Translations under genes and position numbers: made by a program | The notes under the pieces: generated by a model | What the model saw: the letters and a program-made list of their open reading frames with translations, nothing else | Told to the model about the DNA's origin: nothing | Databases searched by the model: none | In this document: piece by piece, positions 23,517 through 29,035 of the stretch | Layout of the letters: every line of letters starts with the position of its first letter | Position numbering within the stretch: position 1 is the first letter of the stretch | Source: a virus | Virus record (IMG/VR): IMGVR_UViG_3300048026_000025 | Coordinates: 1-35,323 of that record | DNA: 35,323 nt | Direction: 5' to 3' (one strand)

Positions 23517-25642
23517 TGAAACGCGGTGAATTGCAATTAGCAAATAGTCTAGCTAACTCTGACATAGACGATGATTTTGTGTCACCTGATGACATGGTTG
23601 ATCCGGGAACAGATTTTAACTATATGTCACGCAAGGAAACACCTGCACAAGCTGCGCTGCGTAAGGCTGAAGCGGGTAAGTTAGCTGGTGAACTGGGTAG
23701 CATGACTGCGGATATGACACCATTCGTAGGTGGGGCTAAAGCTGCCACTGAATTGCCTGATGATTTGTCGTATGCCAAAGCACTTGTAGCAGAAGGCTAC
23801 GATGAATCTGACATAAAGAAGATGGGGCTTGGTGGTGCTTACACTGCTCTGTCTATACTTGGTCTATTACCCGGTGTAAAGATTGGTACTGATGTAGTCA
23901 AGGCTGGTATCAAGTCTTCTGTAAAGGACAGTGTTAAGCCCTCTGTAAAAGATCAGATGGAGAACTTGATTACACCTAAACGTGCGGAGCAGCTAGAGGT
24001 TGCAAAGTCACTACCTGCAGATGAACGTAGACGCTACCTAAAAGAAGTTAATAGACCTACGCCTAAAGTATTTCACGGCGCAAGAAACATAAGTACTAAG
24101 GCAGATGATCCTTCCTCAAAGATGCAAATGGAAGAGTTTCAGTATAAATATATAAACAACACAAAGGTAACTGCAACAAACAACGAATTAACTTTTAAAG
24201 ATGTTTTTGGTGATAAAGAAGAAGTATCCTTAGAATCTATATTACGTAATGACAACAATTTTTTAGCAGTAGTTCCTGAAAACGTAGCGGGATATGCGGA
24301 AGATGTGCTACCCGCTATAGAACCATATGCATCGGATATTCGTTTTAGACCAAGAATTGTGGATACTAAATCTGCCACTAACGATGCTGGCTTTAATGTA
24401 GAGTACGATAAAAACTTCGTAGACCTTATAGATGATACTAATAGTGTAGTAGGAGAAGTGCCTTTAAGCAACGGTTCCGTGAATAGAGCAGATTTAGAAT
24501 CTGCATTAGAAAATATAAATAGAGCGACACACAAAGAAGTTGAAAATTTATATCAAGGATCAAAATTTGAAAGTAAAGGTGAGCAGTTAGAAAAAGAAGG
24601 CTTTGCTCCTTTTGTTGATGAAGGACCACTCTCCAGTGGAAGTAGGCGCACCAAATTTATGGGAGATGCATCTGGTTTTGGAAGCGGTCGAACTGGTCAG
24701 CATATGGAACTTAAAGGTATAAAAGCCTTGTCTACCTCGCGTGATCCTCTTGTGTCAATGAAAGATCAATTTGGAAATCGAGTACTTTCAAATTTAGTTT
24801 ACGCTGACTTACCTAAAGCTGAACAAAGGAACCTATCACCCAAAGAATACAGATTGCTAACAAGAAGATCGCGCACTGATGCAGAAGCAGATGCACTAAG
24901 AGATGAAATACTTGAAGGTGAAGGGATACCTTTATCTTTTCCTAAAAGCGCACACGATGAAGCAGAGGTAGCACTGACAAGACCTCAAGAACTTGATGTA
25001 AAAAGATTATCTAGGGATGACAAAAGACTAAACCCCAGCGAGAATCTTGAAAAACTACCCACTAAAGGCACGGGTAAACTACCTCTTGCTGAACGAGTAG
25101 CCGAAGGTCAAAGGCTTGTAAACAGACTGTTCTCTCAAGCTGAAAAGTTATATAAAATTAATCGACACGAGTACCGTAGTGATGCTACGTTTACTCAAGA
25201 CTATTACAGCACCCTTAGAAATATGTTTAAGGATGCTCAATCTCTAGGTAAGTACACTGAACAATACGGTGCTAGAGGTACATACGATTCATTTTTAGAG
25301 ACGGTTGCACAAAATTCTAGCTTCAAGGAATCACTTAGTAGAGCAGTACAACGTATGCCAGATGGTGAAAAGAAAAGAAACATGCAGGTGTTACATGAAG
25401 TTTTAGATACTATGGCATTTGCACCACAGTCTGCAACAAAAAGAGCAAGAAAAGCAACTAAAGGAATGAGTGACAAAGACCTGAACAAGCTTCTATTTGA
25501 CAGACCTACTATTAAAGGCACTCGCCAGCCAGCCTTAACTATAAAGGAATCACTAGAAGATTTAGGGTACAATGACTATAAGCGTATGGCATTTCTTATC
25601 ACGCAGAAACTAAACCGTGGTGGTCTAATGGCAAAAAAATAA
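23516..25642 (+). CDS. Internal virion protein with possible ADP-ribosyltransferase-like region
   Basis: 708 aa, start overlapping the previous stop (TAATG). Residues 60-140 have a hydrophobic helix pair (GGAYTALSILGLLPGVKIGT) like the preceding giant protein. Residues about 180-500 show a spaced motif set resembling ADP-ribosyltransferase-like domains of phage polyvalent proteins: KVFHGA (His187), ALSTSRD (Ser-Thr-Ser 406-408) and HDEAEVAL (Glu482-x-Glu484). Roughly 150 residues between the first and second motifs look like an insertion. The C-terminal 200 residues are helical. As the last virion gene, it would fit an effector delivered with the genome, but activity is inference from motifs only. 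Confidence 0.6.
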   Translation: MKRGELQLANSLANSDIDDDFVSPDDMVDPGTDFNYMSRKETPAQAALRKAEAGKLAGELGSMTADMTPFVGGAKAATELPDDLSYAKALVAEGYDESDIKKMGLGGAYTALSILGLLPGVKIGTDVVKAGIKSSVKDSVKPSVKDQMENLITPKRAEQLEVAKSLPADERRRYLKEVNRPTPKVFHGARNISTKADDPSSKMQMEEFQYKYINNTKVTATNNELTFKDVFGDKEEVSLESILRNDNNFLAVVPENVAGYAEDVLPAIEPYASDIRFRPRIVDTKSATNDAGFNVEYDKNFVDLIDDTNSVVGEVPLSNGSVNRADLESALENINRATHKEVENLYQGSKFESKGEQLEKEGFAPFVDEGPLSSGSRRTKFMGDASGFGSGRTGQHMELKGIKALSTSRDPLVSMKDQFGNRVLSNLVYADLPKAEQRNLSPKEYRLLTRRSRTDAEADALRDEILEGEGIPLSFPKSAHDEAEVALTRPQELDVKRLSRDDKRLNPSENLEKLPTKGTGKLPLAERVAEGQRLVNRLFSQAEKLYKINRHEYRSDATFTQDYYSTLRNMFKDAQSLGKYTEQYGARGTYDSFLETVAQNSSFKESLSRAVQRMPDGEKKRNMQVLHEVLDTMAFAPQSATKRARKATKGMSDKDLNKLLFDRPTIKGTRQPALTIKESLEDLGYNDYKRMAFLITQKLNRGGLMAKK
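24053..25015 (+). other. Possible ADP-ribosyltransferase-like region
   Basis: Encodes residues 180-500 of the 708-aa protein. The three motifs in order (FHGA; STS; ExE) are those expected of ARTs, but the first is far from the second and the NAD-site arginine or tyrosine cannot be placed by eye. Confidence 0.4.
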
Positions 25643-25660
25643 GGGGGTAGTTAACCCCCC
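25643..25660. terminator. Bidirectional terminator between convergent blocks
   Basis: GGGGGT at 25643-25648 pairs with ACCCCC at 25654-25659 around a 5-base loop, between the convergent stops at 25642 and 25667. For minus-strand transcripts the hairpin is followed by TTATTTTTTT, a strong U-tract that is also the last lysine codons of the plus gene. For plus transcripts the following CTCACTTTTAT is weaker. Confidence 0.85.
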
Positions 25661-25666
25661 TCACTT

Positions 25667-25993
25667 TTATCGGTTATCCCCACTACCACCTAGCTTACCT
25701 CTAGCCTGTCTATCTGCAAGCTTTTCTATATTGTCTTCCATTACCTTGCCTAGATTAACACCTAGTTCTCGTGACAGTACGGCGATATACCAACACACAT
25801 CTCCTAGTTCCTTTGTAATCTCTGCACGTTTAGCAGGGTTATCGCCATCACGTATCAGCTTCTTAGCCTTGTTAGCAATCTCACCTGCCTCACCCGCCAG
25901 TCCTAACGTCAAGTACGCTAGGGCTGTTTCTTTTGGAAAGATAGCTGTGCTACATGCTTTGTTTTGGTAGTCTGCTGCTGTAATGCTACTCAT
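25667..25993 (-). CDS. mazG: MazG-like nucleotide pyrophosphohydrolase
   Basis: 108 aa. Single-domain MazG type: GLAGEAGEIANKAKKL supplies the ExxE pair and KELGDVCWYIAVLS the ExxD pair that bind magnesium. MazG enzymes hydrolyse nucleoside triphosphates to monophosphates; a role on (p)ppGpp has been proposed for marine phage versions, and others prefer dNTPs. The start is placed at 25993 because AAGGAG (26000-26005 on the complement) is 6 bases upstream; the in-frame ATG at 26041 would overlap the previous gene and has no such site. It is the last gene of the minus-strand block, next to an Rmf-like gene. Confidence 0.88.
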   Translation of the reverse strand: MSSITAADYQNKACSTAIFPKETALAYLTLGLAGEAGEIANKAKKLIRDGDNPAKRAEITKELGDVCWYIAVLSRELGVNLGKVMEDNIEKLADRQARGKLGGSGDNR

Positions 25994-26015
25994 CTGTTTC
26001 TCCTTCATCCATTGT

Positions 26016-26222
26016 TTAACTTCCTGCTCTAGCTTTTTCATTCCGTTGTACCTTCTGTAGATTCACATGATAGGCAGTGTTCCAACCTCTATGCCACTCC
26101 CTTGCTTGCATTGTATTTGAATCGATTGGGCAGGTCAGTCTACCTCTTTTAAATGCTTCCTGTCCCCACTCAAATTGAATCCGTAATGGTGCATCGTACT
26201 TGCTTAGTCCATTACGCCGCAT
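26016..26222 (-). CDS. Ribosome-modulation-factor (Rmf/CrpP)-like small protein
   Basis: 68 aa, basic. The pattern GQEAFKRGRLTCPIDSNTMQ followed by AREWHRGWNTAYHVNL fits the Rmf/CrpP-like family: Gly20, Ala23, Gly27, Cys31-Pro32, Arg41, Trp43, Gly46-Trp47 and Ala50 at the expected spacing. Rmf joins 70S ribosomes into inactive dimers in stationary-phase bacteria; phage copies have no settled role. AAGGAG lies 7 bases before the ATG and the start overlaps the previous gene by 11 bases. The assignment is motif-based; true Rmf activity is not implied. Confidence 0.6.
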   Translation of the reverse strand: MRRNGLSKYDAPLRIQFEWGQEAFKRGRLTCPIDSNTMQAREWHRGWNTAYHVNLQKVQRNEKARAGS

Positions 26223-26763
26223 CCTGCATCTCCTTAATCTGGTAATTGAAAAGTTTAATAGCGGTTACTCTACTTATTTTAAACCACTCACCTCTACGCT
26301 CCTCTGCAAAATGTTCAAAGATTTTGTGCATCTCTTTTTCTTTGGAGTGCCTATCTTCTACAGGCATTGTAGCAACTACTTTGTAGTCACGGAAAGGTGA
26401 GGATGTCTGATATCCGTTAAGCCTGTCATCAGATGACACTGCCTTACCTACCTTAACCCAATCTTTCCATGCATCATTAACTATGACATACACTTCTCCT
26501 TGATTAACACTCTCAATCTTGTTATGTGACCAAGCATCATCTAGTGATTTGTATCTGCCCGGTTTGTGTAAAGGATGAGATGAAGGAATGTATTTACCAT
26601 TAACATACATACGATTTTTGTTTTTAGCTGCATGTGTGGACACTCTCTGACGATACCCACTAGGACTATAGTACCACCAATCTCCATCTTCAAATTTTGC
26701 ATCACTGTGAGTGTAATGCTTTAAATTAACATTTTCCCCGCTATTCTTTAAAAAGTCGAACAT
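26212..26763 (-). CDS. GIY-YIG nuclease-fold protein, T5orf172 type
   Basis: 183 aa. C-terminal domain (residues 89-165) has the degenerate GIY-YIG core of the T5orf172/MUG113 family: VYVIVNDAWKDWVKVGKAVS (Tyr92, Gly106), DDRLNGYQTSSPF with Arg114, a glutamate in KEKEMHKIF, and a terminal GEWFKIS. The N-terminal 85 residues (YYSPSGYRQR, MYVNGKYIPSSHPLHKPGRY) look like a separate small DNA-binding or substrate module. Such proteins are phage endonucleases of unclear target; some act as free-standing homing enzymes. It starts 2 bases after the previous gene's stop. Confidence 0.78.
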   Translation of the reverse strand: MFDFLKNSGENVNLKHYTHSDAKFEDGDWWYYSPSGYRQRVSTHAAKNKNRMYVNGKYIPSSHPLHKPGRYKSLDDAWSHNKIESVNQGEVYVIVNDAWKDWVKVGKAVSSDDRLNGYQTSSPFRDYKVVATMPVEDRHSKEKEMHKIFEHFAEERRGEWFKISRVTAIKLFNYQIKEMQDAA

Positions 26764-27103: not shown

Positions 27104-29035
27104 CTACGCTGCTGCGATGTCAACTATTTCACACACCCCTGCAGTACAGGCTAACTCACGCCCACCTGAAGTGGTGTCCTCTTTTTCAAAGTCACTCAGC
27201 TTAGTCCAGTTAACCTTCTTAGGCATCTTCTTCTTGAACTCAGCGTACTGTTCAGCATCAATGTCCTGATATGGTGCTTGCTGATATGTGTGTTCACTGA
27301 ATGGTAGGAAGCTGATGCCACTCACTTCATCAAAGTGTTCATACACCCAAGCACCCACGTCCATCCACTCAGATTCCTTGACTGAGATAGTGACTGAAGG
27401 TTTGTGTTCGCACCAGTGACGCTGATAAGTGAGCCACAGTTTAAGCTGTTCAATGGCAGTCATTTGGGTACGTGTTACCGCACCTTTAGGTGACTTCATC
27501 GGGAAGCTAAACACTGTAGTGCTATCAGGCTTCATTACATCAGGCTCCGCTGGGATACCTTCAGCAACCAAGAACTGTGTCAGTGGGTCTTTGTTATCGC
27601 CACGTACTGTACGAATGTAGTACGGATTGTGACGTGCATGAATACCACTGGCTGCATCAGTAAGCTGCGACACAGTACCACTAGGCTTGACACAAGTGAC
27701 AGCAGTAGACTGTGGTATTTTAAGCTGCTTAGACATAGCTTCGTTAACAATCACTGCCTCTGCACGTAAGATTTCAAGTGCAGTTTCTAGCTTACCACCT
27801 GAAGTAGCAGTCAAGGAATTGTCCATGATGCCTGTCAGTGACACGCCCAGCAACCGTTCTTCTTCGGTATTCTTCTGCCAAATCTTACGCAGATACTTGA
27901 AGTTAGTTAGTGTCGCTTGGAATGTACCCAAGATTGTAGCCAATCGTACCTTCTCTTTTAGTGTAGCAAGAGTATCTGACTCACGTACTACTACCTCAGA
28001 CAAGTTACAGAACTGGTATGGACGCAAGATAATTTCACTGCAAGGGTTACAACCGAAATCATGTTCTGTCTCACGTCTACCATTCTTTTCTGCCTGCTTC
28101 TTAGCTGACTGCCTGTTGAAGATGCCACGCTCGCCCGACTTGCTGTCATACAAAGACAACCACTCACGCATGAATGTACCCATCTCAGGCTTAGTCTTGT
28201 ATGCAACAGAGTTATTAGCCAACGCACGTTGACCCTCATTCTCCCACCACTGACCCGACTTGGCATGCGCCATCTGATCATCGTTAAGATTAGACAATGA
28301 AATCAATGCACTACGGCGTACACCACCGACAACTACAACCTCACCAATCTTACACATGATGTCGTGACACTCAATTGGATACAGCCTACGTCCAGCAGCA
28401 CCCTTGAACTTTTGAATACAGAACTCAAACAATTCAATAAGGGGCTGTGGACCTGATGCACGACCGCCAAATGTCTTTAGCCGTGCGCCAGCAGGACGTA
28501 CTTCGCTGACATCGAACTTAGGTATTTGTCCAGTGTACAGCATAGCAATTAATTCCTTCAGTGACTTAGCCCAACCCGGACGTGAATCACCTACCTTAAT
28601 TACTGTGTCTGTATTATGGAACTCTTCGCTAACCATCGGTAGCTTCTCAATGCAGTGACGTTCAACGCTGAAGCCAACGCCAGTGCCACACATCAAGATG
28701 TACATAGACTCGTCAAAGGCACGAGGGCTATCCACAGGTACGTATGAACAGTTGTATCCACCTACGTGGCAACGGTCTAGTGCTGGCCCAGCAGTCATCA
28801 ATGCCCTCATAGAAGGCATGATAGACTGGTTGAGTACAGCTTCTTCCAGTTCACCTCTTAGTGTGTCTGGTAGCTTATAGCCATTGTTAGTACGCAAATG
28901 GCTAGCCATATAATCAAAGTATCTAGTGACAGTTTCACCCCATGTCTCCCTTCGCTGTTCATCTTCTTTCCATCTTGCATAGCGTGAAAGTGCTATGAAG
29001 TTCTGGTAGTCTGTTGGTAATGTGTTGCTAATCAT
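27104..29035 (-). CDS. nrdJ: Class II (adenosylcobalamin-dependent) ribonucleotide reductase
   Basis: 643 aa, monomeric ribonucleoside-triphosphate reductase type as in Lactobacillus leichmannii. Reduces ribonucleotides to deoxyribonucleotides using B12. Key residues line up by spacing: Cys96 (YNCSYVPVDS) and Cys343 (QFCNLSE) as the active-site pair, NPCSE with radical Cys332 and Glu334, and a C-terminal Cys630/Cys635 pair for re-reduction by thioredoxin. MCGTGVGFSVE and CVKPSGTVSQL are further family blocks. It is oxygen-independent and needs no second subunit, but needs host adenosylcobalamin. It sits 7 bases after a 48-aa gene. Confidence 0.93.
   Translation of the reverse strand: MISNTLPTDYQNFIALSRYARWKEDEQRRETWGETVTRYFDYMASHLRTNNGYKLPDTLRGELEEAVLNQSIMPSMRALMTAGPALDRCHVGGYNCSYVPVDSPRAFDESMYILMCGTGVGFSVERHCIEKLPMVSEEFHNTDTVIKVGDSRPGWAKSLKELIAMLYTGQIPKFDVSEVRPAGARLKTFGGRASGPQPLIELFEFCIQKFKGAAGRRLYPIECHDIMCKIGEVVVVGGVRRSALISLSNLNDDQMAHAKSGQWWENEGQRALANNSVAYKTKPEMGTFMREWLSLYDSKSGERGIFNRQSAKKQAEKNGRRETEHDFGCNPCSEIILRPYQFCNLSEVVVRESDTLATLKEKVRLATILGTFQATLTNFKYLRKIWQKNTEEERLLGVSLTGIMDNSLTATSGGKLETALEILRAEAVIVNEAMSKQLKIPQSTAVTCVKPSGTVSQLTDAASGIHARHNPYYIRTVRGDNKDPLTQFLVAEGIPAEPDVMKPDSTTVFSFPMKSPKGAVTRTQMTAIEQLKLWLTYQRHWCEHKPSVTISVKESEWMDVGAWVYEHFDEVSGISFLPFSEHTYQQAPYQDIDAEQYAEFKKKMPKKVNWTKLSDFEKEDTTSGGRELACTAGVCEIVDIAAA

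Follow-up and report, generated by a model that had tools for sequence, protein, structure and literature searches.

A predicted RMF-fold early protein encoded beside MazG in an HMO-2011-type marine podovirus

In this work, we analysed an IMG/VR record of 35,323 bases (IMGVR_UViG_3300048026_000025), hereafter the window. It is the genome sequence of an HMO-2011-type marine podovirus whose nearest isolate is Puniceispirillum phage HMO-2011 (DNA polymerase 78 %, ribonucleotide reductase or RNR 82 %, MazG 51 %, 68-aa ORF 56 %). The features considered are the following.

27104..29035, minus strand: class II (B12-dependent) RNR (PHROG 367, E 9.4e-196)
26212..26763, minus strand: T5orf172/MUG113 (GIY-YIG-like) protein, 5' of the Rmf-like gene (Pfam: MUG113, E 1.9e-9; T5orf172, E 3.4e-8)
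26016..26222, minus strand: predicted 68-aa Rmf/CrpP-fold protein, a basic two-helix hairpin (profile, homologue L207, AF2 model, pN/pS)
26016..26041, minus strand: overlap of 26 nt between the end of the Rmf-like gene and the start of mazG (ORF coordinates)
25667..26041, minus strand: MazG nucleotide pyrophosphohydrolase, 124 aa, EXXE/EXXD intact (Pfam PF03819, PHROG 229)
25641..25661, no strand assigned: bidirectional terminator-like stem (scan of both strands)

The early operon ends, on the minus strand, with the genes for RNR, a 105-aa ORF, the T5orf172/MUG113 protein, the 68-aa ORF and MazG, in that order; after the last two come the terminator-like stem and the convergent structural genes. 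The sequence-only reading of this DNA had described an Rmf/CrpP-pattern ORF adjoining mazG at the end of the early operon, and both ORFs were recovered at the stated positions; they lie on the minus strand and overlap by 26 nt. The T5orf172/MUG113 ORF itself overlaps the start of the Rmf-like gene by 11 nt, and its product is patchy among relatives (48 matches in 217 loci).

When the 68-aa protein was used as sole query, a scan of IMG/VR retrieved 80 loci; pooling of several queries brought the set of relatives to 217 loci, window included. The ORF is a real gene, and it is under strong purifying selection, with a pN/pS of 0.10 in the window's clade and of 0.17 in a second clade. No family was found for the protein in a PHROGs search, and in isolate genomes this early protein is either labelled hypothetical or left without annotation. 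Among deposited Roseobacter phage genomes, the ORF is unannotated in CRP-235 (L004, 4977-5165), CRP-212 (L005, 4986-5180) and CRP-3 (L008, 4974-5159). No bacterial origin of the gene could be traced by a genome scan, which returned seven MAG loci only, mostly with phage gene order. Four loci, L218-L221 (NZIV01000047.1, NHFY01000018.1, NZIV01000030.1 and NHFY01000045.1), show the HMO-2011-type gene order on contigs of 55,371 and 62,825 bases, and contigs of these same sizes occur in both 'Flavobacteriales' and 'Neomarinimicrobiota' MAGs; they are phage contigs binned as bacteria.

The downstream gene encodes a MazG that passes the Pfam cut-off (PF03819, 34.8 bits for a cut-off of 22) and matches PHROG 229 (E 9.5e-37). 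Its catalytic motif EXXE(12-28)EXXD, read from the sequence, is present as E51/E54 and E78/D81. An overlap of 26 nt with the Rmf-like gene is the commonest among relatives, and the MazG N-terminus (M-K-LEQEA..WMKE), inside and just past the overlap, is conserved, so that a wrongly chosen start codon does not account for the overlap. An alternative start at M17 has a stronger Shine-Dalgarno (SD) sequence; yet the first 16 residues are conserved across divergent clades, so that the overlapping start was favoured. The overlap suggests translational coupling of the two genes in one set of lineages.

The assignment of the 68-aa protein to the Rmf/CrpP proteins was assessed by sequence profiles and by structure. 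The profile search proposed in the sequence-only reading matched the Rmf family, but the protein's own scores lie below the cut-offs, i.e. Pfam RMF (PF04957; E 0.0024, 18.4 bits, sub-threshold for a gathering cut-off of 27.9), NCBIfam Rmf/CrpP NF041886 (E 0.0043, 16.6 bits, below the curated cut-off of 28) and the phage Rmf/CrpP fold protein family NF041887 (E 0.01, 15.2 bits, short of the curated cut-off of 40). Across 36 diverse relatives, PF04957 was matched by 18 and hardly any other family was matched; NF041887 was matched at all by only five of the 36, with a best E of 0.01. A tblastn search of phages with E. coli RMF found nothing. The homologue encoded at locus L207, which shares 50 % identity with the window protein over 46 residues (BLASTP, E 3e-14), passes the Pfam RMF cut-off (28.3 vs 27.9 bits). 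When a family profile was compared with all PDB sequences, RMF came first (E 0.013), followed by mTOR chains (0.12); with a wider family alignment (A3), RMF was still first, at a weaker E of 0.12. An AF2 model built from an alignment of the window and IMG/VR loci only had a pLDDT of 88.8 and comprised helices at residues 13-26 and 38-67. Its best structural matches were the RMFs of E. coli (Z 6.0) and Vibrio (Z 5.9), the next unrelated one scoring 3.9, and the best PDB match in Foldseek had an E of 1.5. Such values are modest, as expected for a helical hairpin of 68 residues, and the case for an RMF fold therefore rests on the agreement between methods.

That the hairpin resembles RMF by chance, being in fact unrelated to it, would be in line with the Foldseek value and with a window protein that stays under every curated cut-off. 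We nevertheless hold this to be highly improbable, as an evident homologue scores above the Pfam cut-off and RMF ranks first in both profile search and structural alignment. An RMF/CrpP fold of the 68-aa protein is thus supported by the model and profiles, well beyond the first pattern reading, and the resemblance appears to be real. The family is a separate branch of Rmf/CrpP proteins centred on HMO-2011-type phages, and related Rmf/CrpP-like ORFs were found in Delftia, Caulobacter, Brevundimonas and Streptomyces phages. Net charge is strongly positive in most members (median +7), and those of the CRP-212 clade are nearly neutral. Many marine members (L001, L040 and L063 among them) have an interhelical loop lengthened by 10-13 residues.

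The conservation of the gene pair was surveyed on loci retrieved with the Rmf-like protein as the only query, which kept adjacency of MazG from being built into the sample. MazG lies directly downstream and overlaps in 155 of the 210 scorable loci (217 minus seven cut at a contig end). In the others, MazG precedes RNR (19 loci), is missing with the RNR start in view (11), or the locus is cut upstream (25). Whole records of 14 loci with other arrangements included seven without any MazG match, many of which may be fragments. As the 217 loci are redundant, they were grouped into 13 RNR clusters at 80 % identity; the adjacent pair occurs in seven of them, two of these seven being mixed.

Among HMO-2011-type isolates, the adjacent pair is found in three of 11 distinct ones (HMO-2011, CRP-1 and CRP-345). 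CRP-3 and CRP-212 carry MazG before RNR and the Rmf-like gene after it; in CRP-235 the Rmf-like gene is accompanied by another pyrophosphohydrolase. The Rmf-like gene is lacking from CRP-207, which has MazG, and from CRP-2, CRP-603 and CRP-738, which encode a pyrophosphohydrolase other than MazG. The part of HTVC033P that was read holds neither MazG, another pyrophosphohydrolase nor an Rmf-like gene. Neither the short ORFs adjoining MazG in P12053L, CRP-125, CRP-804 and Jojan60 nor the 68-aa products of the last early gene in CRP-2, CRP-603 and CRP-207 are Rmf-like. Elsewhere, a search within 2.5 kb of MazG at eight loci from other phages found no Rmf-like gene, and MazG is missing from the vicinity of the Rmf-like ORFs in four further phages. 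The Rmf-family match and the co-occurrence of the two genes in related genomes, on which the sequence-only reading had staked its case, are therefore both found; the neighbourhood survey it called for shows a pair conserved in close relatives, present in a minority of the isolates and absent from the eight MazG loci of other phages. The pairing of the Rmf-like gene with MazG is thus not obligatory but limited to certain lineages.

Within the RNR module, MazG or another NTP-PPase is present in all ten RNR-bearing HMO-2011-type isolates. In the marine phages SIO1, P12053L, CRP-125 and CRP-804, MazG stands beside class II RNR or one small gene away, and the surrounding 2.5 kb hold no Rmf-like gene. 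The MazG of cyanophage S-PM2 has dGTP/dCTP as preferred substrates and shows no binding or hydrolysis of (p)ppGpp (PMC6850273). Together, the RNR association and this cyanophage enzymology tie MazG to dNTP supply: judging from gene order and by analogy, MazG, or a pyrophosphohydrolase in its stead, goes with RNR and would serve dNTP synthesis rather than stringent-response control. Two freshwater loci differ in this module. At L207 (1002-5177, freshwater-type), a class I RNR (nrdA-like and nrdB-like ORFs) replaces class II and the Rmf-like ORF follows nrdB by ~160 bases; at L196 (5171-5554), the gene after the Rmf-like ORF, at the place of MazG in marine relatives, resembles a low-molecular-weight phosphatase (CVCSAGLLRSPT motif).

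These data bear on the proposal, made from the sequence alone, of a joint cassette in which MazG lowers ppGpp and the Rmf-like protein silences ribosomes, the two together setting the translation state of the host. The frequency of the overlapping pair among Rmf-like loci and the structural match to RMF speak for it, as does the reported lowering of (p)ppGpp by E. coli MazG. Nevertheless, the inactivity of the cyanophage enzyme on (p)ppGpp, the confinement of the pairing to one set of lineages, and the occurrence of each gene away from the other, with MazG beside RNR where no Rmf-like gene is near, make such joint control very unlikely, and we did not retain it.

We further examined residues known to matter in E. 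coli RMF, where loss of G16, C29, W40 or W44 abolishes ribosome binding, and where G23 and R45 are required for dimerisation, R45 contacting the anti-SD (PMC8126665). In the profile alignment, the window protein keeps G20, C31, W43 and W47 at the positions of G16, C29, W40 and W44, and G27 at that of G23. Across the phage family, G20 and W43 are invariant, W47 is W, F or Y, and the Cys is not conserved; nor is the loop C29-P30, which serves binding or dimerisation in E. coli. The position of R45 is N48 in the window and is N or D in all 145 distinct relatives. On the host side, a search at E 0.001 or better of 80 genomes, sampled from the family to which a Rhodobacteraceae MAG belongs, detected RMF in none; 79 of the same 80 encode the C-terminal domain of long HPF. 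RMF is described as confined to species with short HPF, and it has been proposed that the linker of long HPF runs across the RMF site (PMC6746590).

If the protein acted as a classical RMF, host ribosomes would be dimerised into 100S particles during infection. The shared fold and the core Gly/Trp residues are what such a role would predict, but the replacement of R45 throughout the family and a sampled host family that has long HPF and no RMF render it scarcely credible. Simple masking of the anti-SD might be expected to go with weak Shine-Dalgarno sequences in late genes. Early and late phage genes showed no significant difference in Shine-Dalgarno energies (p 0.18 and 0.10); since late genes have Shine-Dalgarno sequences about as good as those of early genes, a general block of the anti-SD is argued against. 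A model of an SD switch, in which late genes escape anti-SD occlusion, was likewise unsupported, the energies of the two classes being alike. A non-dimerising 30S ligand, possibly competing with HPF, is the reading of the 68-aa protein that fits best, on the grounds of its residues and of the host background.

The RMF fold does not by itself fix function, since P. aeruginosa has an RMF homologue, BatR (PA3049), that plays no part in hibernation (PMC13411936). This example, and the fact that many family members lack C29-P30, leave room for a role away from the ribosome. The fold could have been re-used on another target, the protein then being a small early inhibitor or adaptor of a host protein or of phage nucleotide enzymes, e.g. 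RNR, as other small phage helical proteins are. R45, too, is not kept family-wide. Gene order is compatible with this: where a locus extends far enough, RNR is almost always 5' of the Rmf-like gene, the latter overlaps the end of RNR by 28 nt in one clade and by 13 nt in another, and it comes after nrdB where a class I enzyme takes over. However, this place may merely be conserved operon order, RNR being 2-4 kb from the Rmf-like gene in some freshwater relatives, and both the ribosome-binding residues retained in the window protein and the strongly basic character of most members speak against such a target. We consider a non-ribosomal target a real, if doubtful, possibility.

Our preferred explanation, which we advance tentatively, is that the two genes are co-transcribed early genes with different jobs, i.e. 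a MazG acting on the dNTP pool and a non-dimerising RMF-fold protein whose probable target is the 30S subunit. MazG, next to RNR, would trim dNTPs/NTPs for the phage dNTP pool. The 68-aa protein would dock on the 30S near the 3' end of 16S, as RMF does, without dimerising ribosomes, and once docked may tune initiation or compete with the long HPF of the host, so that early infection would proceed on available ribosomes. A narrower version, in which this non-dimerising ligand of the anti-SD cleft is an anti-hibernation factor that blocks hibernation by long HPF or retunes initiation in hosts devoid of RMF, seems to us rather unlikely.

HMO-2011-type phages have been reported as both dominant and widespread among ocean phages. 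Their hosts are slow-growing roseobacters and SAR116, in which ribosomes may frequently be at rest. A conserved RMF-fold early protein is thus a candidate for how these phages handle host ribosome status; if the anti-hibernation version were true, ribosomes of slow-growing marine bacteria would be kept available for the phage. With R45 lost and long HPF in the hosts, a specific prediction follows, i.e. binding without dimerisation. Gene order, by linking MazG to RNR and dNTP supply, corrects the ppGpp explanation that recurs in papers on marine phages, and what remains of interest is that phages of hosts lacking RMF encode an early protein with the RMF fold. Our literature search found no paper joining Rmf-like proteins with HMO-2011-type phages.

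Among known systems, RMF (PF04957; E. coli PDB 6H4N/9IOT, Vibrio 2JRM) is, like the window protein, a small and basic two-helix hairpin, and its G16, G23, C29-P30, W40, G43, W44 and A47 are all matched in the latter. The phage family differs from it by N or D in place of R45, by a G23-C29 loop that is two residues shorter in the window protein and 10-13 longer in other clades, and by its setting, i.e. a phage early gene instead of a stationary-phase gene, in hosts with long HPF and no RMF. NF041886 and NF041887 cover the same profile region and small phage-encoded proteins, the window protein lying below both cut-offs. BatR (PA3049; PMC13411936) shares the RMF fold without a hibernation role, but is chromosomal, bears an extra C-terminal helix and has a biofilm phenotype. 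Finally, phage MazG proteins (S-PM2, PMC6850273; HMO-2011 gp21) are all-alpha NTP pyrophosphohydrolases with an intact motif, encoded among DNA and nucleotide genes as here; what sets the HMO-2011-like marine subgroups apart is the Rmf-like gene that overlaps mazG.
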